Shown one piece after another: positions 7,875-53,409 of a DNA stretch of 64,000 bases. The stretch spans positions 1 to 64,000 of the forward strand of contig WRAH01000008.1 in assembly GCA_009780315.1 (NCBI GenBank), in the 5' to 3' direction. The notes under the pieces are model-generated. The model was given only the letters and a program-made list of their open reading frames with translations, was not told the origin of the DNA and searched no databases. Position 1 is the first letter of the stretch; each line of letters starts with the position of its first letter. This DNA is from Defluviitaleaceae bacterium (lineage in GTDB: Bacteria; Bacillota; Clostridia; Lachnospirales; WQUN01). Position numbers and translations under genes: made by a program.

Positions 7875-8447
7875 TTATGGCAGGTACTTTTTCCTTAAAT
7901 ATACATCTATATAATTTATTGATGGGCGAGGATTTACCTCTACACATTCTTTCACAGATGTGATGATTGTATCGGCTGACAAATCGTATCTGTGCAACCA
8001 TCTATCTACGATAAGAACGTTATAATGCGATATGCTTTTTCCTGTGATTTTTGTTATCTCGTCAACGCATTCCAGCAGTAAATCTTTGTCACTTCTTATG
8101 CCAATATTTTTGTTATTAAATCTAATGAACCCTATGCCTGTAAAGTCGGTTTCTGGAATGTCGCTAAAATCAATATCCGAATCATCATCGCTTTTCCAAG
8201 CTATATCGTTATGGCTGACGGTTTCACCGTTGACATACTCTTGTTCGGCTAGAGTAATGTGATTTAGGTCGTTGTCTGACAGTTCATCATCATTCCAATT
8301 TTCACACTCATCTATCGCCCAGTGTTTCACGGCTTCTAACGCATCAAAAGCCGATTGTCTATCACCAAATCGCCCATCTTGCGCTTGACCTACCAATCTA
8401 TTTATTTCATCAAGTAGCAGTCTTTGATTTACCGTTTTTCCCATCAT
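7875..8447 (-). CDS. Hypothetical protein of the mobile element, DnaD-like tail possible
   Basis: 190 residues with a good ribosome site (AAGGAGTAATG). The middle (about 60-110) is very acidic (DDELSDNDLNH, KSDDDSDIDFSDI). The last 55 residues (YNVLIVDRWLHRYDLSADTIITS...INYIDVYLRKKYL) resemble in pattern the C-terminal helices of DnaD/DnaB-like replication proteins, where a conserved NYI segment precedes the final helix. This likeness is weak. It is the last of a run of small genes in the same direction that includes the toxin-antitoxin pair. Confidence 0.5.
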   Translation of the reverse strand: MMGKTVNQRLLLDEINRLVGQAQDGRFGDRQSAFDALEAVKHWAIDECENWNDDELSDNDLNHITLAEQEYVNGETVSHNDIAWKSDDDSDIDFSDIPETDFTGIGFIRFNNKNIGIRSDKDLLLECVDEITKITGKSISHYNVLIVDRWLHRYDLSADTIITSVKECVEVNPRPSINYIDVYLRKKYLP

Positions 8448-49915: not shown

Positions 49916-49951
49916 GATAAATTTTAATAATAAAAAAAGAAAGTTAATAGA

Positions 49952-49991
49952 AATGCACCTATCATCTGATTTTCAAGATGATAGGTGCATT
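49952..49991. terminator. Terminator after ugpC
   Basis: A perfect 16-bp stem (49952-49967 with 49976-49991) followed by TTGTTAATG. It sits between converging ugpC and the B12 radical SAM gene. Confidence 0.85.
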
Positions 49992-50032
49992 TTGTTAATG
50001 CGTTAGAGAGAATAATGGTTAAATACTTTCTA

Positions 50033-51925
50033 TCACACAGGCGTAGCTGCTTGTTTAGTAGATGGCTGAAATGCAATAGGTTTAATTTGATTTCTAGCTT
50101 CACCAGATAATGCTTTAAGCAATCCAGCTGGCGATAAAACGCCTTGCTTAAATATTTTATTTTTCTTGTAAAATCGAATATATTGCTCTGTTTTGACAAG
50201 GGTTTTGCTTCGATAAGCTTCAGTAATATCAAAGTCTGTTTTCACTACCAAAGACTCTGTGCTATTGCTTCTTGCATAATCATAAAAAGCTTTTTCATAA
50301 CTAAAAACCATAGCCAGCAAACCATTATAATCGGTACCAATCTCACGCCTGCATAAGTCAATAAAAAACTGAGCTGCCCGGTCATCATCTTCATAATTTA
50401 TAAAAGTGCTGTCAATTACGAAATTTTCAGACGCGTTTCTTTCATTATGAATATCCGTTATGATATCTTCCATCATCGTGTATAGCGTCAACAAACCATA
50501 CTTGCCTATCACATGCTTTACAGAAAGTTTAAAACAAGAAAAGAGTGCTGAAAAACATATAACAAGTGTATCAAAAAATGGGTATTGAAGCCTCACTTCT
50601 GTATCAAAGACGTAGCAGTGAGAAAACATGTCGGGATATGCTTTAACAAGAGAAACAGAGATTTCATCCATTTTGTTATGATATAGTGTAGGCTTTGACT
50701 TCTCAGGTGAGTAGTACATAATATCCTTTACTTTCTCATATTCAAATGTCATAGGGTATAATTGAAAACAATGCATCTGTATCACAATAGGTCTTGTCAG
50801 TTCCTTGAAAAGGGATTCAATAAACATCACAGTTTCCTTAAAATCATCTATTGTTTCATCTGGAAAACCATAAATAAATGAAGCCGTAATGTTAATCTTA
50901 ACGAGCATACATTCTCTTATTACATTAAGAGCGGTCTCTAGATTTAAGTTTTTCTTGATAATTTTTTGCATTCTAGGCGATGCAGTTTCTATCCCTAGGT
51001 AGATATTCCTACACCCTGCTTTTTTTAAGTGCTTCAGCATTTCTATCTTTAAAACATCAGTTCTTGATGAACAACCCCACGTAAAGGGCCGATTACTTTC
51101 AATGAGCTTATTACAAAATTCCATCAAACGCTCATGGTCAGCTGTAAACAAATCATGCATTATAGAAAAATGGCTGATTTTGAACTTGTCGTAGTAATAT
51201 ATAAACTCATTAAATAGGTCATCTATGTTTTTTAGCCTAAAATTTCGCTCCCAAAAAATACTTGTTGCGCAGAATGTGCAATTGAAAGGACAACCACGTC
51301 CCCCCTCTAGTGGAATTGACAACGCTTCATCAGCAGCAATTGTAGGAAAGGTATATGGAGAATAGTCTTGAATGCTATACTTTACTAATTCCGTTCCTGC
51401 TAACCGCTTAGGTGATTCATTTCTTATGATAGAAGCATCGCCCGCCCTATATGCTATCCCTGGAACATCTTTTATATCCTTATATCCTATAAGCGACTGC
51501 ATCAAATCCACTGCCGTAAATTCTGATTCGCCTAAAGCAATTGCGTCAACAAAATCGAAAGCAGTCAAACAACTTTTGTACGTATGTGTGGCCTGTGGAC
51601 CTCCAAACACGATTTTTATACTACTATCATTATTTTTTACATGTTGGGCAACTCTTACAGACACATCAAAAGAGCAGGACATTGTGTAGAACCCAACTAT
51701 TTTCGGCTTCTTTAATGTAATATATTGAGCAATGTTTTTAACATTTACCTCATAATCATTTTCGTAACTAAATTTATCTGTAGAATAAAGATAATCAAAG
51801 TCAATAATATCAACACTAAAATGTGGCTTTAGCACTTCACGCAAAGTTAGCAATCCTAAATGTATGTGATTTTGCCAGTGAGTGCGCTTCGTAAACTCAA
51901 CACTTCCCACAAGGATAATATCCAT
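50033..51925 (-). CDS. B12-binding radical SAM enzyme of RiPP cluster
   Basis: 630 residues from ATG 51925 (a TTG four codons upstream has no spaced ribosome site). A Rossmann-like B12-binding part (MDIILVGSV...VGFYTMSC...IVFGGPQATHTY...ALGESEF) precedes the radical SAM core with C212-x3-C216-x2-C219 (GGRGCPFNCTFCATS). A helical C-terminal part of about 200 residues follows. The layout fits RiPP C-methyltransferases of the type that act on Nif11-like or similar precursor peptides. It is the last gene of a three-gene set with the precursor and a second radical SAM gene. It would methylate or otherwise modify unactivated carbons in the core peptide. Confidence 0.75.
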   Translation of the reverse strand: MDIILVGSVEFTKRTHWQNHIHLGLLTLREVLKPHFSVDIIDFDYLYSTDKFSYENDYEVNVKNIAQYITLKKPKIVGFYTMSCSFDVSVRVAQHVKNNDSSIKIVFGGPQATHTYKSCLTAFDFVDAIALGESEFTAVDLMQSLIGYKDIKDVPGIAYRAGDASIIRNESPKRLAGTELVKYSIQDYSPYTFPTIAADEALSIPLEGGRGCPFNCTFCATSIFWERNFRLKNIDDLFNEFIYYYDKFKISHFSIMHDLFTADHERLMEFCNKLIESNRPFTWGCSSRTDVLKIEMLKHLKKAGCRNIYLGIETASPRMQKIIKKNLNLETALNVIRECMLVKINITASFIYGFPDETIDDFKETVMFIESLFKELTRPIVIQMHCFQLYPMTFEYEKVKDIMYYSPEKSKPTLYHNKMDEISVSLVKAYPDMFSHCYVFDTEVRLQYPFFDTLVICFSALFSCFKLSVKHVIGKYGLLTLYTMMEDIITDIHNERNASENFVIDSTFINYEDDDRAAQFFIDLCRREIGTDYNGLLAMVFSYEKAFYDYARSNSTESLVVKTDFDITEAYRSKTLVKTEQYIRFYKKNKIFKQGVLSPAGLLKALSGEARNQIKPIAFQPSTKQAATPV

Positions 51926-51986
51926 AGTATATAACAACTCTCTTTCTTAGTCGAATACACATATCTAAAGTCATTTATTAAAAGAT

Positions 51987-52020
51987 GGGGTGAAAAATAA
52001 GGTGCGGTATACTACAGTTT
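51987..52020. repeat. Left repeat pair flanking RiPP precursor
   Basis: GGGGTGAAAAATAA (51987-52000) and TACTACAGTTT (52010-52020) each have a perfect inverted copy on the other side of the precursor gene, at 52363-52376 and 52379-52389. Confidence 0.8.
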
Positions 52021-52053
52021 TTTACTTAGGCTTTCAGTGGATAGACTAGATGA

Positions 52054-52075
52054 CAAATAACTACATTGTTATTTG
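52054..52075. promoter_or_regulatory. Hairpin at the 3' end of the precursor gene
   Basis: CAAATAAC / GTTATTTG, a perfect 8-bp stem with loop TACATT. It overlaps the last four codons and stop of the precursor. There is no T-run, so it may stabilise the mRNA or slow transcription rather than terminate it. Confidence 0.45.
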
Positions 52076-52342
52076 GTATTTTTGACCAGCATGGTCTGTC
52101 TGTGTAATTGCGCCACCAGCTACCATTTCGAGATCATTGTCTTCTAAATCAATTTCGATTTCTGACATTCCATTAAAAGCTTCTGCAAACTCATCTTCAG
52201 TCACACCTTTGAGATGGTCTTTGCAGACTTCATAAAATGGTGAAAGATTACCTTTTGAAACTTGAGCCTCAATAGACTTTATATGCTCTATTATTTCTGG
52301 TTTTTTGAATAAATCTGTTATTTTTTCTCTCAGATTACTCAT
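52061..52342 (-). CDS. RiPP precursor peptide with VAGG leader
   Basis: 93 residues. The leader (1-77) is acidic and helical, with LEDNDLEMVAGG ending at G76-G77, the usual double-glycine cleavage site of Nif11-like and similar RiPP leaders. The core is AITQTDHAGQKYQITM (78-93), with no Cys, two Thr in ITQT and a Tyr, Gln and Lys that radical SAM enzymes could modify. AGGAGGTGAC lies upstream. It is between a SPASM-type radical SAM gene and the B12 radical SAM gene, all in one direction. The cluster has no visible transporter or peptidase. Confidence 0.75.
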   Translation of the reverse strand: MSNLREKITDLFKKPEIIEHIKSIEAQVSKGNLSPFYEVCKDHLKGVTEDEFAEAFNGMSEIEIDLEDNDLEMVAGGAITQTDHAGQKYQITM

Positions 52343-52362
52343 TAAGTCACCTCCTATTTTAT

Positions 52363-52389
52363 TTATTTTTCACCCCATAAACTGTAGTA
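52363..52389. repeat. Right repeat pair flanking RiPP precursor
   Basis: TTATTTTTCACCCC (52363-52376) and AAACTGTAGTA (52379-52389) are the exact reverse complements of the two left blocks, but in swapped order. Confidence 0.8.
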
Positions 52390-52393
52390 CTCA

Positions 52394-53323
52394 TTAGAGT
52401 TTTTTAACATAATCATATACAAATGGTAATAATAAGTAATAATTTTCTTTTGAAAATAGTATGGAACACAACTCACAAGAAATGACTAGTTTCTCAGGAA
52501 TAGTGATATCTAATGAATTGTTTTCTACTATATCCAAAAAACAATCAAATCCATAATTACGTAAAAGGTATAAGAAGGGATTATTTTTTAACTTAATCAG
52601 GCTTTGTGGCACATCAAGTTCACACATGTTTCCAACTATAAGTTCAGTTTCATATATATATGGATTGCAGCAAGGTCTTATGGTTCCGTCATAGTCCACT
52701 GGAAACGAACCTTTTTTTCCGCAAAATAAACCTCTAGGTAAAGTTTCCCGAATAAATCTATCTGGGTTGATATTTTTTGCAGCATTGCCAACGTTGGAAC
52801 ATGGTACAAATTGAATGTCGATACATGATAAGTCAGCACCTATTTTATTTATTATATCGCCAACGTTTGAATCATTTAATATAACAGCTTGAATAGTTGC
52901 CCTAATATCTAATTTTTTAGCAGCACGAATTAGATTCTTTATATTGTGAGCAGGAACAAACTTAGCATGGAACTCATCATAACTCATACCCAGCACAGTT
53001 AAACCAGCTTTTTTGAGTTCCACGACACGTTTTTCAACCTTTTCATAATCATCAGCCCAAAAGCCATTTGTGATGACTGATGTAGATTTTCCCAAAGAAC
53101 TAGATATAGAGATTAATTCTTTAAGTAAATCAAAATGCAAAAAAGCTTCGCCGCCAGAAAATCCTATCCATTCTATGGGCGTATCTTTAGAGCTTACAAT
53201 GTATCTTTTTGAATTTTCATAATTCATTGTAATTGATGGACAAGATTCCGAATAATCACAGCACATAGAGCAGGATAAATCGCAATCATTTGTAATTCTT
53301 AAACCTAAAGTTTTGTACCTCAC
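52394..53323 (-). CDS. Radical SAM protein with SPASM-like C-terminus
   Basis: 309 residues. C14-x3-C18-x2-C21 (NDCDLSCSMCCDY) binds the 4Fe-4S cluster; WIGFSGGEAFLHF follows as the SAM-binding GGE motif. From about residue 195, CGKKGSFPVDYDGTIRPCCNP and later Cys pairs resemble a twitch/SPASM auxiliary-cluster domain, which marks peptide-modifying enzymes. It is upstream of the precursor gene in the same direction and probably modifies its core, for example by cross-linking. The exact chemistry is unknown. Confidence 0.75.
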   Translation of the reverse strand: MRYKTLGLRITNDCDLSCSMCCDYSESCPSITMNYENSKRYIVSSKDTPIEWIGFSGGEAFLHFDLLKELISISSSLGKSTSVITNGFWADDYEKVEKRVVELKKAGLTVLGMSYDEFHAKFVPAHNIKNLIRAAKKLDIRATIQAVILNDSNVGDIINKIGADLSCIDIQFVPCSNVGNAAKNINPDRFIRETLPRGLFCGKKGSFPVDYDGTIRPCCNPYIYETELIVGNMCELDVPQSLIKLKNNPFLYLLRNYGFDCFLDIVENNSLDITIPEKLVISCELCSILFSKENYYLLLPFVYDYVKKL

Positions 53324-53409
53324 ATTGAATCCCCCTCACGCATCGACTGCTATGTAAATAAGTTATATGATGAAACTATACGTAAAGTAATACATTTATC
53401 AATGAGTTT

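Follow-up and report, generated by a model that had tools for sequence, protein, structure and literature searches.

The 64,000-nt stretch of a Defluviitaleaceae bacterium genome analyzed here (the window, part of contig C8) carries on its minus strand a real cassette for a ribosomally synthesized and post-translationally modified peptide (RiPP), in which a radical S-adenosylmethionine (SAM) enzyme resembling the peptide epimerase EpeE, a precursor with a double-glycine leader, and a B12-binding radical SAM enzyme resembling ApyD follow one another in that order (Table 1). The gene content, the enzyme families, their conserved catalytic residues, the sibling and remote copies of the enzyme pair, and the presence of an exporter are established from sequence. 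We consider it reasonably probable that this is an acquired minimal cassette, whose product would receive D-residues and C-methylation and would be exported in trans as a secreted peptide. The individual parts are of known kinds, and the cluster is a hybrid of the epipeptide and proteusin types; the combination itself appears undescribed, as a search covering part of the literature found no described cluster pairing an EpeE-like epimerase with an ApyD-like B12 enzyme.

An initial annotation, made from the letters of the sequence, had called a compact RiPP cluster whose two radical SAM enzymes differ in type, which Pfam domains and NCBIfam-type profiles bear out. Inspection confirmed three open reading frames (ORFs) on the minus strand, at the annotated coordinates or very close to them.

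The Precursor Peptide

Of the 415 ORFs in the window that reach 40 aa, no short one (up to 150 aa) other than the precursor has a C39-type double-glycine leader signature. Its leader end, LEDNDLEMVAGG, has L-12, L-7, V-4, G-2, and G-1, which places it among the double-glycine precursors cleaved by C39 peptidases, recognized by L-12, L-7, a hydrophobic residue at -4, and Gly-Gly. The codon-usage score is positive solely in the coding frame (+0.21 vs. -0.64 and -0.70). As first annotated, a leader ending in VAGG is followed by a 16-residue core, AITQTDHAGQKYQITM, and classical thioethers are excluded by the lack of Cys; the core also has no Arg.

No family in Pfam or NCBIfam matches the precursor above its cut-off, and the leader body matches neither TIGR03793 nor TIGR03798 above cut-off. 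No homologues were found in IMG/VR, and 391 genomes of the class gave just weak matches, mostly chance similarities in long ORFs; the best candidate (L073) was rejected, lying within a 145-aa zinc-ribbon-type protein. Homologues without radical SAM neighbors, which the initial annotation had regarded as evidence against a cluster, were sought and none was found, yet no clear homologue of any kind was found either. Separately, the region of the precursor ribosome binding site (52343-52367) recurs at 52829-52853 inside the epimerase gene with 23 of 25 bases identical (92%), which is probably chance in AT-rich DNA.

The EpeE-like Radical SAM Enzyme

The best profile for the first enzyme is that of YydG-type peptide epimerases, TIGR04078, at 208 bits against 43 for the runner-up, and Pfam confirms the radical SAM domain. 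The solved structures of EpeE (PDB 8ai1-8ai6) match at E about 1e-40, and an AlphaFold2 model (pLDDT 91) superposes on EpeE with a TM of 0.91 and an rmsd of 2.4, the top nine matches all being EpeE. In 10 homologues, the CxxxCxxC cysteines of the radical SAM motif (C14/C18/C21) are invariant, and likewise the auxiliary-cluster and hydrogen-donor cysteines C201, C218, C219, C283, and C286. C219 aligns with EpeE Cys223, the proposed hydrogen donor in an enzyme whose epimerization targets are Val and Ile (PMC8326336, PMC5682303).

The initial annotation had instead described this enzyme as a SPASM-like cross-linker, a label that did not survive comparison with EpeE/YydG by profile, structure, fold, and catalytic cysteine. 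Cross-linking maturases also use a second cluster, the enzyme has a weak SPASM match below threshold (17.0 vs. 21.5 bits), and the window core contains a Lys-Tyr pair, so a SPASM-type enzyme forming a carbon-carbon bond at Tyr or Lys, with or without B12 methylation, has something to be said for it. We nonetheless judge it quite improbable, since YydG is by far the best family, the structure and the catalytic Cys match EpeE, and the core of a sibling cluster described below has neither Lys nor Tyr despite the same enzyme pair. From an EpeE/YydG-like enzyme, L-to-D epimerization would be expected rather than cross-links, and because epimerization leaves mass unchanged, the +14 or -2 Da readout proposed initially would miss it; the label "SPASM-like" on a small cluster-linked radical SAM enzyme can thus predict the wrong mass shift.

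A reading of the enzyme as part of a defense system was also discarded, as viperin-like profiles are weak (45 bits) and EpeE is a much better fit. When 85,000 genomes were scanned twice for the epimerase, no match was confirmed; the patterns were narrow, making this a weak negative.

The ApyD-like B12 Radical SAM Enzyme

In the second enzyme, the B12-binding (PF02310) and radical SAM (PF04055) domains both score above their Pfam cut-offs, and C212/C216/C219 are invariant. Its start is placed at ATG 51925 in preference to TTG 51937, because the alignment with the sibling gene of contig C18 begins at MDIVLV, and AGAGAG precedes this ATG at suitable spacing. The closest family by profile is ApyD (NF050148; 274 bits, about twice the 135 bits of the next), and ApyD methylates the C-beta of a tyrosine (PMC11117315). 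The predicted structure (pLDDT 81) matches OxsB, MgmA, TsrM, CysS, and TokK, all of them B12 radical SAM enzymes and mostly methylating. C-methylation, already listed as a likely modification in the initial annotation, is supported by this proximity to a C-methyltransferase and is a probable first guess, not a certainty.

The enzyme might instead carry out a non-methylating radical reaction on the peptide, with the epimerase acting as proposed, as relatives of HpnJ, BchE, OxsB, or AprD4 do on other substrates. The HpnJ, BchE, and AprD4 families score 74-135 bits and OxsB is the top fold match; however, ApyD, a peptide C-methyltransferase, scores about twice any other family, and MgmA, TsrM, CysS, and TokK, which match the fold, all methylate. 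We regard a non-methylating reaction as unlikely.

A Sibling Cluster and Related Pairs in Other Genomes

A sibling cluster on contig C18 of the same genome encodes an epimerase and a B12 enzyme that are 60% and 51% identical to the window pair. Its precursor is of the NHLP type (TIGR03793, 55.2 vs. a cut-off of 50.9) with the core GCSLSIFRMC. The cluster also encodes two SPASM radical SAM enzymes, and one of its proteins carries three peptide-arginase motifs (FENHHSVLF, DSHHD, and DIDCDFF) of the kind that belongs to the peptide arginase OspR (PMC10028609). The window cluster lacks the SPASM pair and the arginase-like protein, and its core lacks Cys and Arg; it is as if the enzymes track core residues, the extra enzymes of C18 fitting the extra Cys and Arg. 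The residue classes that the two cores have in common are Ile, Met, Gly, aromatic, basic, and hydroxy. Of these, Ile would be the natural target of the epimerase and the aromatic residue, Phe in the sibling, that of the ApyD-like enzyme. The C18 cluster is the richer of the two and deserves separate study. It also offers a natural comparison, with the same enzyme pair and two unlike precursors, in which swapping could separate leader from core recognition.

In a remote genome of another family (G373), a B12 gene and a pair of EpeE-like genes, all belonging to the same groups, are neighbors (about 38% identity), the B12 gene being apparently split by an IS30-type transposase. The epimerase tree groups the window, C18, and G373 sequences (support 94/92), the B12 enzyme tree groups the same three with G113 (82/94), and the two trees are compatible. 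The recurrence of the pair on C18 and in G373 with compatible trees indicates that the functions of the epimerase and the B12 enzyme are linked. By eye, the G373 genes (L038) adjoin others that look like cobalamin-synthesis genes (cbiB- and cobQ-like).

A separate EpeE-like/B12 pair occurs in G010 beside three VAGG precursors with Val/Gly-rich cores. Loci resembling canonical epipeptide clusters, in G648, in G677, and on contig C29 of the same genome as the window, have transporters and lack the B12 enzyme. We tentatively propose, with somewhat more doubt than conviction, that an EpeE-type epimerase and an ApyD-type B12 enzyme make up a transferable module of two enzymes, which has been combined with several unrelated leaders (the window type, NHLP on C18, VAGG in G010) both inside and outside a single bacterial family. 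The module would be a convergent counterpart to the pairing of epimerase and C-methyltransferase in proteusins, and its products would leave the cell in trans via one shared NHLP transporter.

Several of these loci have features of their own. Direct repeats of 200 bp with 92.5% identity (174-372 and about 7947-8146) border the G010 cluster, as though it had been acquired or could be excised. G677 carries two tandem EpeX-like precursors (L082:8327-8671; core ...SMWYFIVATLKAVVGSKGH), followed downstream by an ABC transporter and an EpeE-like gene. At L054:6576-10941 in G389, an EpeE-like epimerase adjoins a possible precursor of 60 aa, rich in Val, and a protein of 854 aa, perhaps a lanthipeptide synthetase; the cluster is possibly a hybrid.

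Export

The initial annotation had reported no exporter. This holds locally, where inspection of the neighboring genes revealed no RiPP-type exporter or protease adjacent to the cluster, but not genome-wide: the single C39 peptidase domain of the genome lies in an NHLP-type exporter pair on contig C6 (TIGR03796, 913 bits against a cut-off of 853, beside TIGR03797, 728 against 709). The leader end with L-12, L-7, V-4, and GG is common to the precursors of C8, C18, and C6, and NHLP and Nif11 precursors are known to sit far from their modification and export genes (Haft et al., PMC2887384). The window peptide is probably exported in trans by the C6 pair, to judge from these motifs. The C6 neighborhood (L059/L060, about 47-62 kb) also holds an NHLP precursor with the core INAYSDINGDCGAYACK, a SPASM radical SAM enzyme and, by eye, an AgrB-like protein with a two-component pair; a HlyD-like gene there is seemingly short (69 aa).

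Pyrroloquinoline quinone and mycofactocin are made from short precursors, and a comparable product that stays inside the cell, a redox cofactor or signal cut out of the Lys-Tyr region, would explain the missing local exporter and would fit the short cluster and the Tyr in the core. Such a product is very unlikely here, as the C39-type leader end is common to precursors beside, or sharing a genome with, an NHLP exporter, the sibling core has no Tyr, and no cofactor-type peptidase or dehydrogenase lies nearby.

Proposed Mechanism

The reactions, the residues they modify, their order, export in trans, and the biological role are what we infer from these data. The precursor would be translated with its 77-residue leader. 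The EpeE-type enzyme would then take the C-alpha hydrogen from at least one core residue, most likely Ile2 and/or Ile14, and Cys219 would re-deliver a hydrogen to give D-residues of unchanged mass. The ApyD-like enzyme would C-methylate the core, adding 14 Da to its unmodified mass of 1804.88 Da, most likely at an sp3 carbon of Tyr12 or of a neighbor, before, after, or independently of epimerization. Leader cleavage after VAGG and export would both fall to the C6 pair, the only NHLP-type C39 peptidase/ABC pair of the genome, giving a linear, secreted peptide with D-residues and C-methylation that, by analogy with epipeptides and proteusins, may be membrane-active or act in signaling.

Several points weigh against this scheme. 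The epimerase falls under the curated TIGR04078 cut-off (208 against 300 bits), and we file it as EpeE-like, not as an EpeE ortholog; EpeE Asp210 is not conserved, being Ser206 in the window enzyme and Ile in the sibling, which likewise makes EpeE-like the best name. The B12 enzyme, at 274 bits, is far under the NF050148 equivalog cut-off of 750, and B12 radical SAM relatives also perform ring contractions, cyclizations, and dehydrations, which leaves methylation uncertain. A Pfam scan recognized no RRE domain in the window enzymes. With no clear precursor homologue, the target residues depend on the comparison of two unlike cores, and the trans exporter was assigned solely by motif and uniqueness.

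Comparison with Known Systems

Set against the systems it most resembles, the window cluster shows the following likenesses and differences:

(i) Epipeptides (epeXEPAB/YydFGHIJ of Bacillus subtilis) share the EpeE/YydG-type epimerase, with the same fold and an equivalent of Cys223. The window cluster has no EpeX-like precursor, EpeP protease, or EpeAB transporter (none in 49.9-54 kb), its 93-aa double-glycine precursor is unrelated to EpeX, and it adds a B12 radical SAM enzyme.

(ii) Proteusins (polytheonamide and landornamide) share the long leader ending in Gly-Gly and a peptide epimerase, in polytheonamide beside radical SAM C-methylation. In the C18 sibling the leader is truly of the NHLP type, and the peptide-arginase motifs recall landornamide. 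Unlike theirs, the window leader does not reach the NHLP cut-off, and the epimerase is of the EpeE kind, not the RRE-bearing PoyD/OspD type; EpeE shares no significant homology with PoyD/OspD (PMC8326336).

(iii) The aminopyruvatide-type apy cluster (Burkholderia thailandensis) provides the nearest family of the B12 enzyme, ApyD, with the same B12-binding and radical SAM domains. The window cluster has no MNIO, P450, or methyltransferase, its core lacks the GYLYD motif, and the ApyD score is far below cut-off.

(iv) NHLP/Nif11 systems (PMC2887384) share a long leader, a VAGG site, a precursor apart from the export genes, and an NHLP exporter pair in the genome; the body of the window leader scores under both family cut-offs.

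Polytheonamide, the product of a large cluster, also combines D-residues with C-methylation. With three genes and an epimerase of the EpeE kind, for which structures have been solved, the window cassette would offer a far more compact setting for studying how two radical enzymes share one core.

Genomic Context

On one side the cluster borders genes of the ugpC-like and gerA-like kinds, on the other genes for M23 and M50 peptidases (spoIVFA/B-like). A hairpin at the ugpC-like side probably closes the unit; the terminator scan did not call it. A candidate promoter precedes the epimerase gene, and promoter-like sites around the cluster overall show no excess above chance.

Table 1. Coordinates of the cluster, its putative signals and repeats, and two related loci.
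Feature	Location	Strand	Description or basis
EpeE/YydG-type radical SAM peptide epimerase (predicted)	52394..53323	-	309 aa, GTG start; profile, structure match, model, cysteines
Precursor	52061..52342	-	93 aa; 77-residue leader ending LEDNDLEMVAGG, 16-residue core AITQTDHAGQKYQITM
Precursor ribosome binding site	52350..52355	-	AGGAGG; sequence
B12-binding radical SAM enzyme, probable peptide C-methyltransferase (ApyD-like)	50033..51925	-	630 aa; PF02310 + PF04055; profile; model
Putative bidirectional terminator	49951..49992	.	17-bp perfect hairpin between convergent ugpC-like and B12 radical SAM gene ends
Candidate promoter upstream of epimerase gene	53375..53402	-	TTGATA-16-TATAGT; consensus match 10/12
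Left arm, exact 16-nt inverted repeat bracketing precursor gene	51985..52000	+	repeat search
Right arm, exact 16-nt inverted repeat, just upstream of precursor ribosome binding site	52363..52378	-	repeat search
Second inverted pair	52010-52020 / 52379-52389		11 nt, crossed order with 16-nt pair
Sibling RiPP cluster	L010:8113-15371 (G000 contig C18)		two SPASM radical SAM, probable peptide arginase, EpeE-like epimerase, NHLP precursor, B12 radical SAM
Separate EpeE-like/B12 pair	L013:551-5739 (G010)		beside three VAGG precursors, Val/Gly-rich cores (nearly all Val, Ile, Ala, Gly)

No other segment of the window is as AT-rich as that of the cluster (GC 34.1% vs. 41.7%), and the epimerase is absent from 35 of 38 family genomes, some of them incomplete. 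On low GC and this patchy distribution alone, the cluster was probably acquired horizontally. Insertion is not directly demonstrable from an empty site, since the same-genus contig (G001 C4) stops before it and other genomes differ there.

An exact inverted repeat brackets the precursor gene and is the strongest medium-range inverted repeat in the window, with about 0.03 repeats of its length and spacing expected per shuffled window. It is absent from the C18 sibling cluster. As a genome-wide motif it was rejected, other matches having 1-2 mismatches and the best (C18:23137) lying inside coding sequence. In the fold predicted for the mRNA (z -3.0), its 16-nt arms pair as the outer stem, and mRNA structure has been proposed to stabilize epeX mRNA (PMC12871923). 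The repeat could likewise stabilize the precursor mRNA, or it could mark an invertible or mobile cassette or a cassette end.

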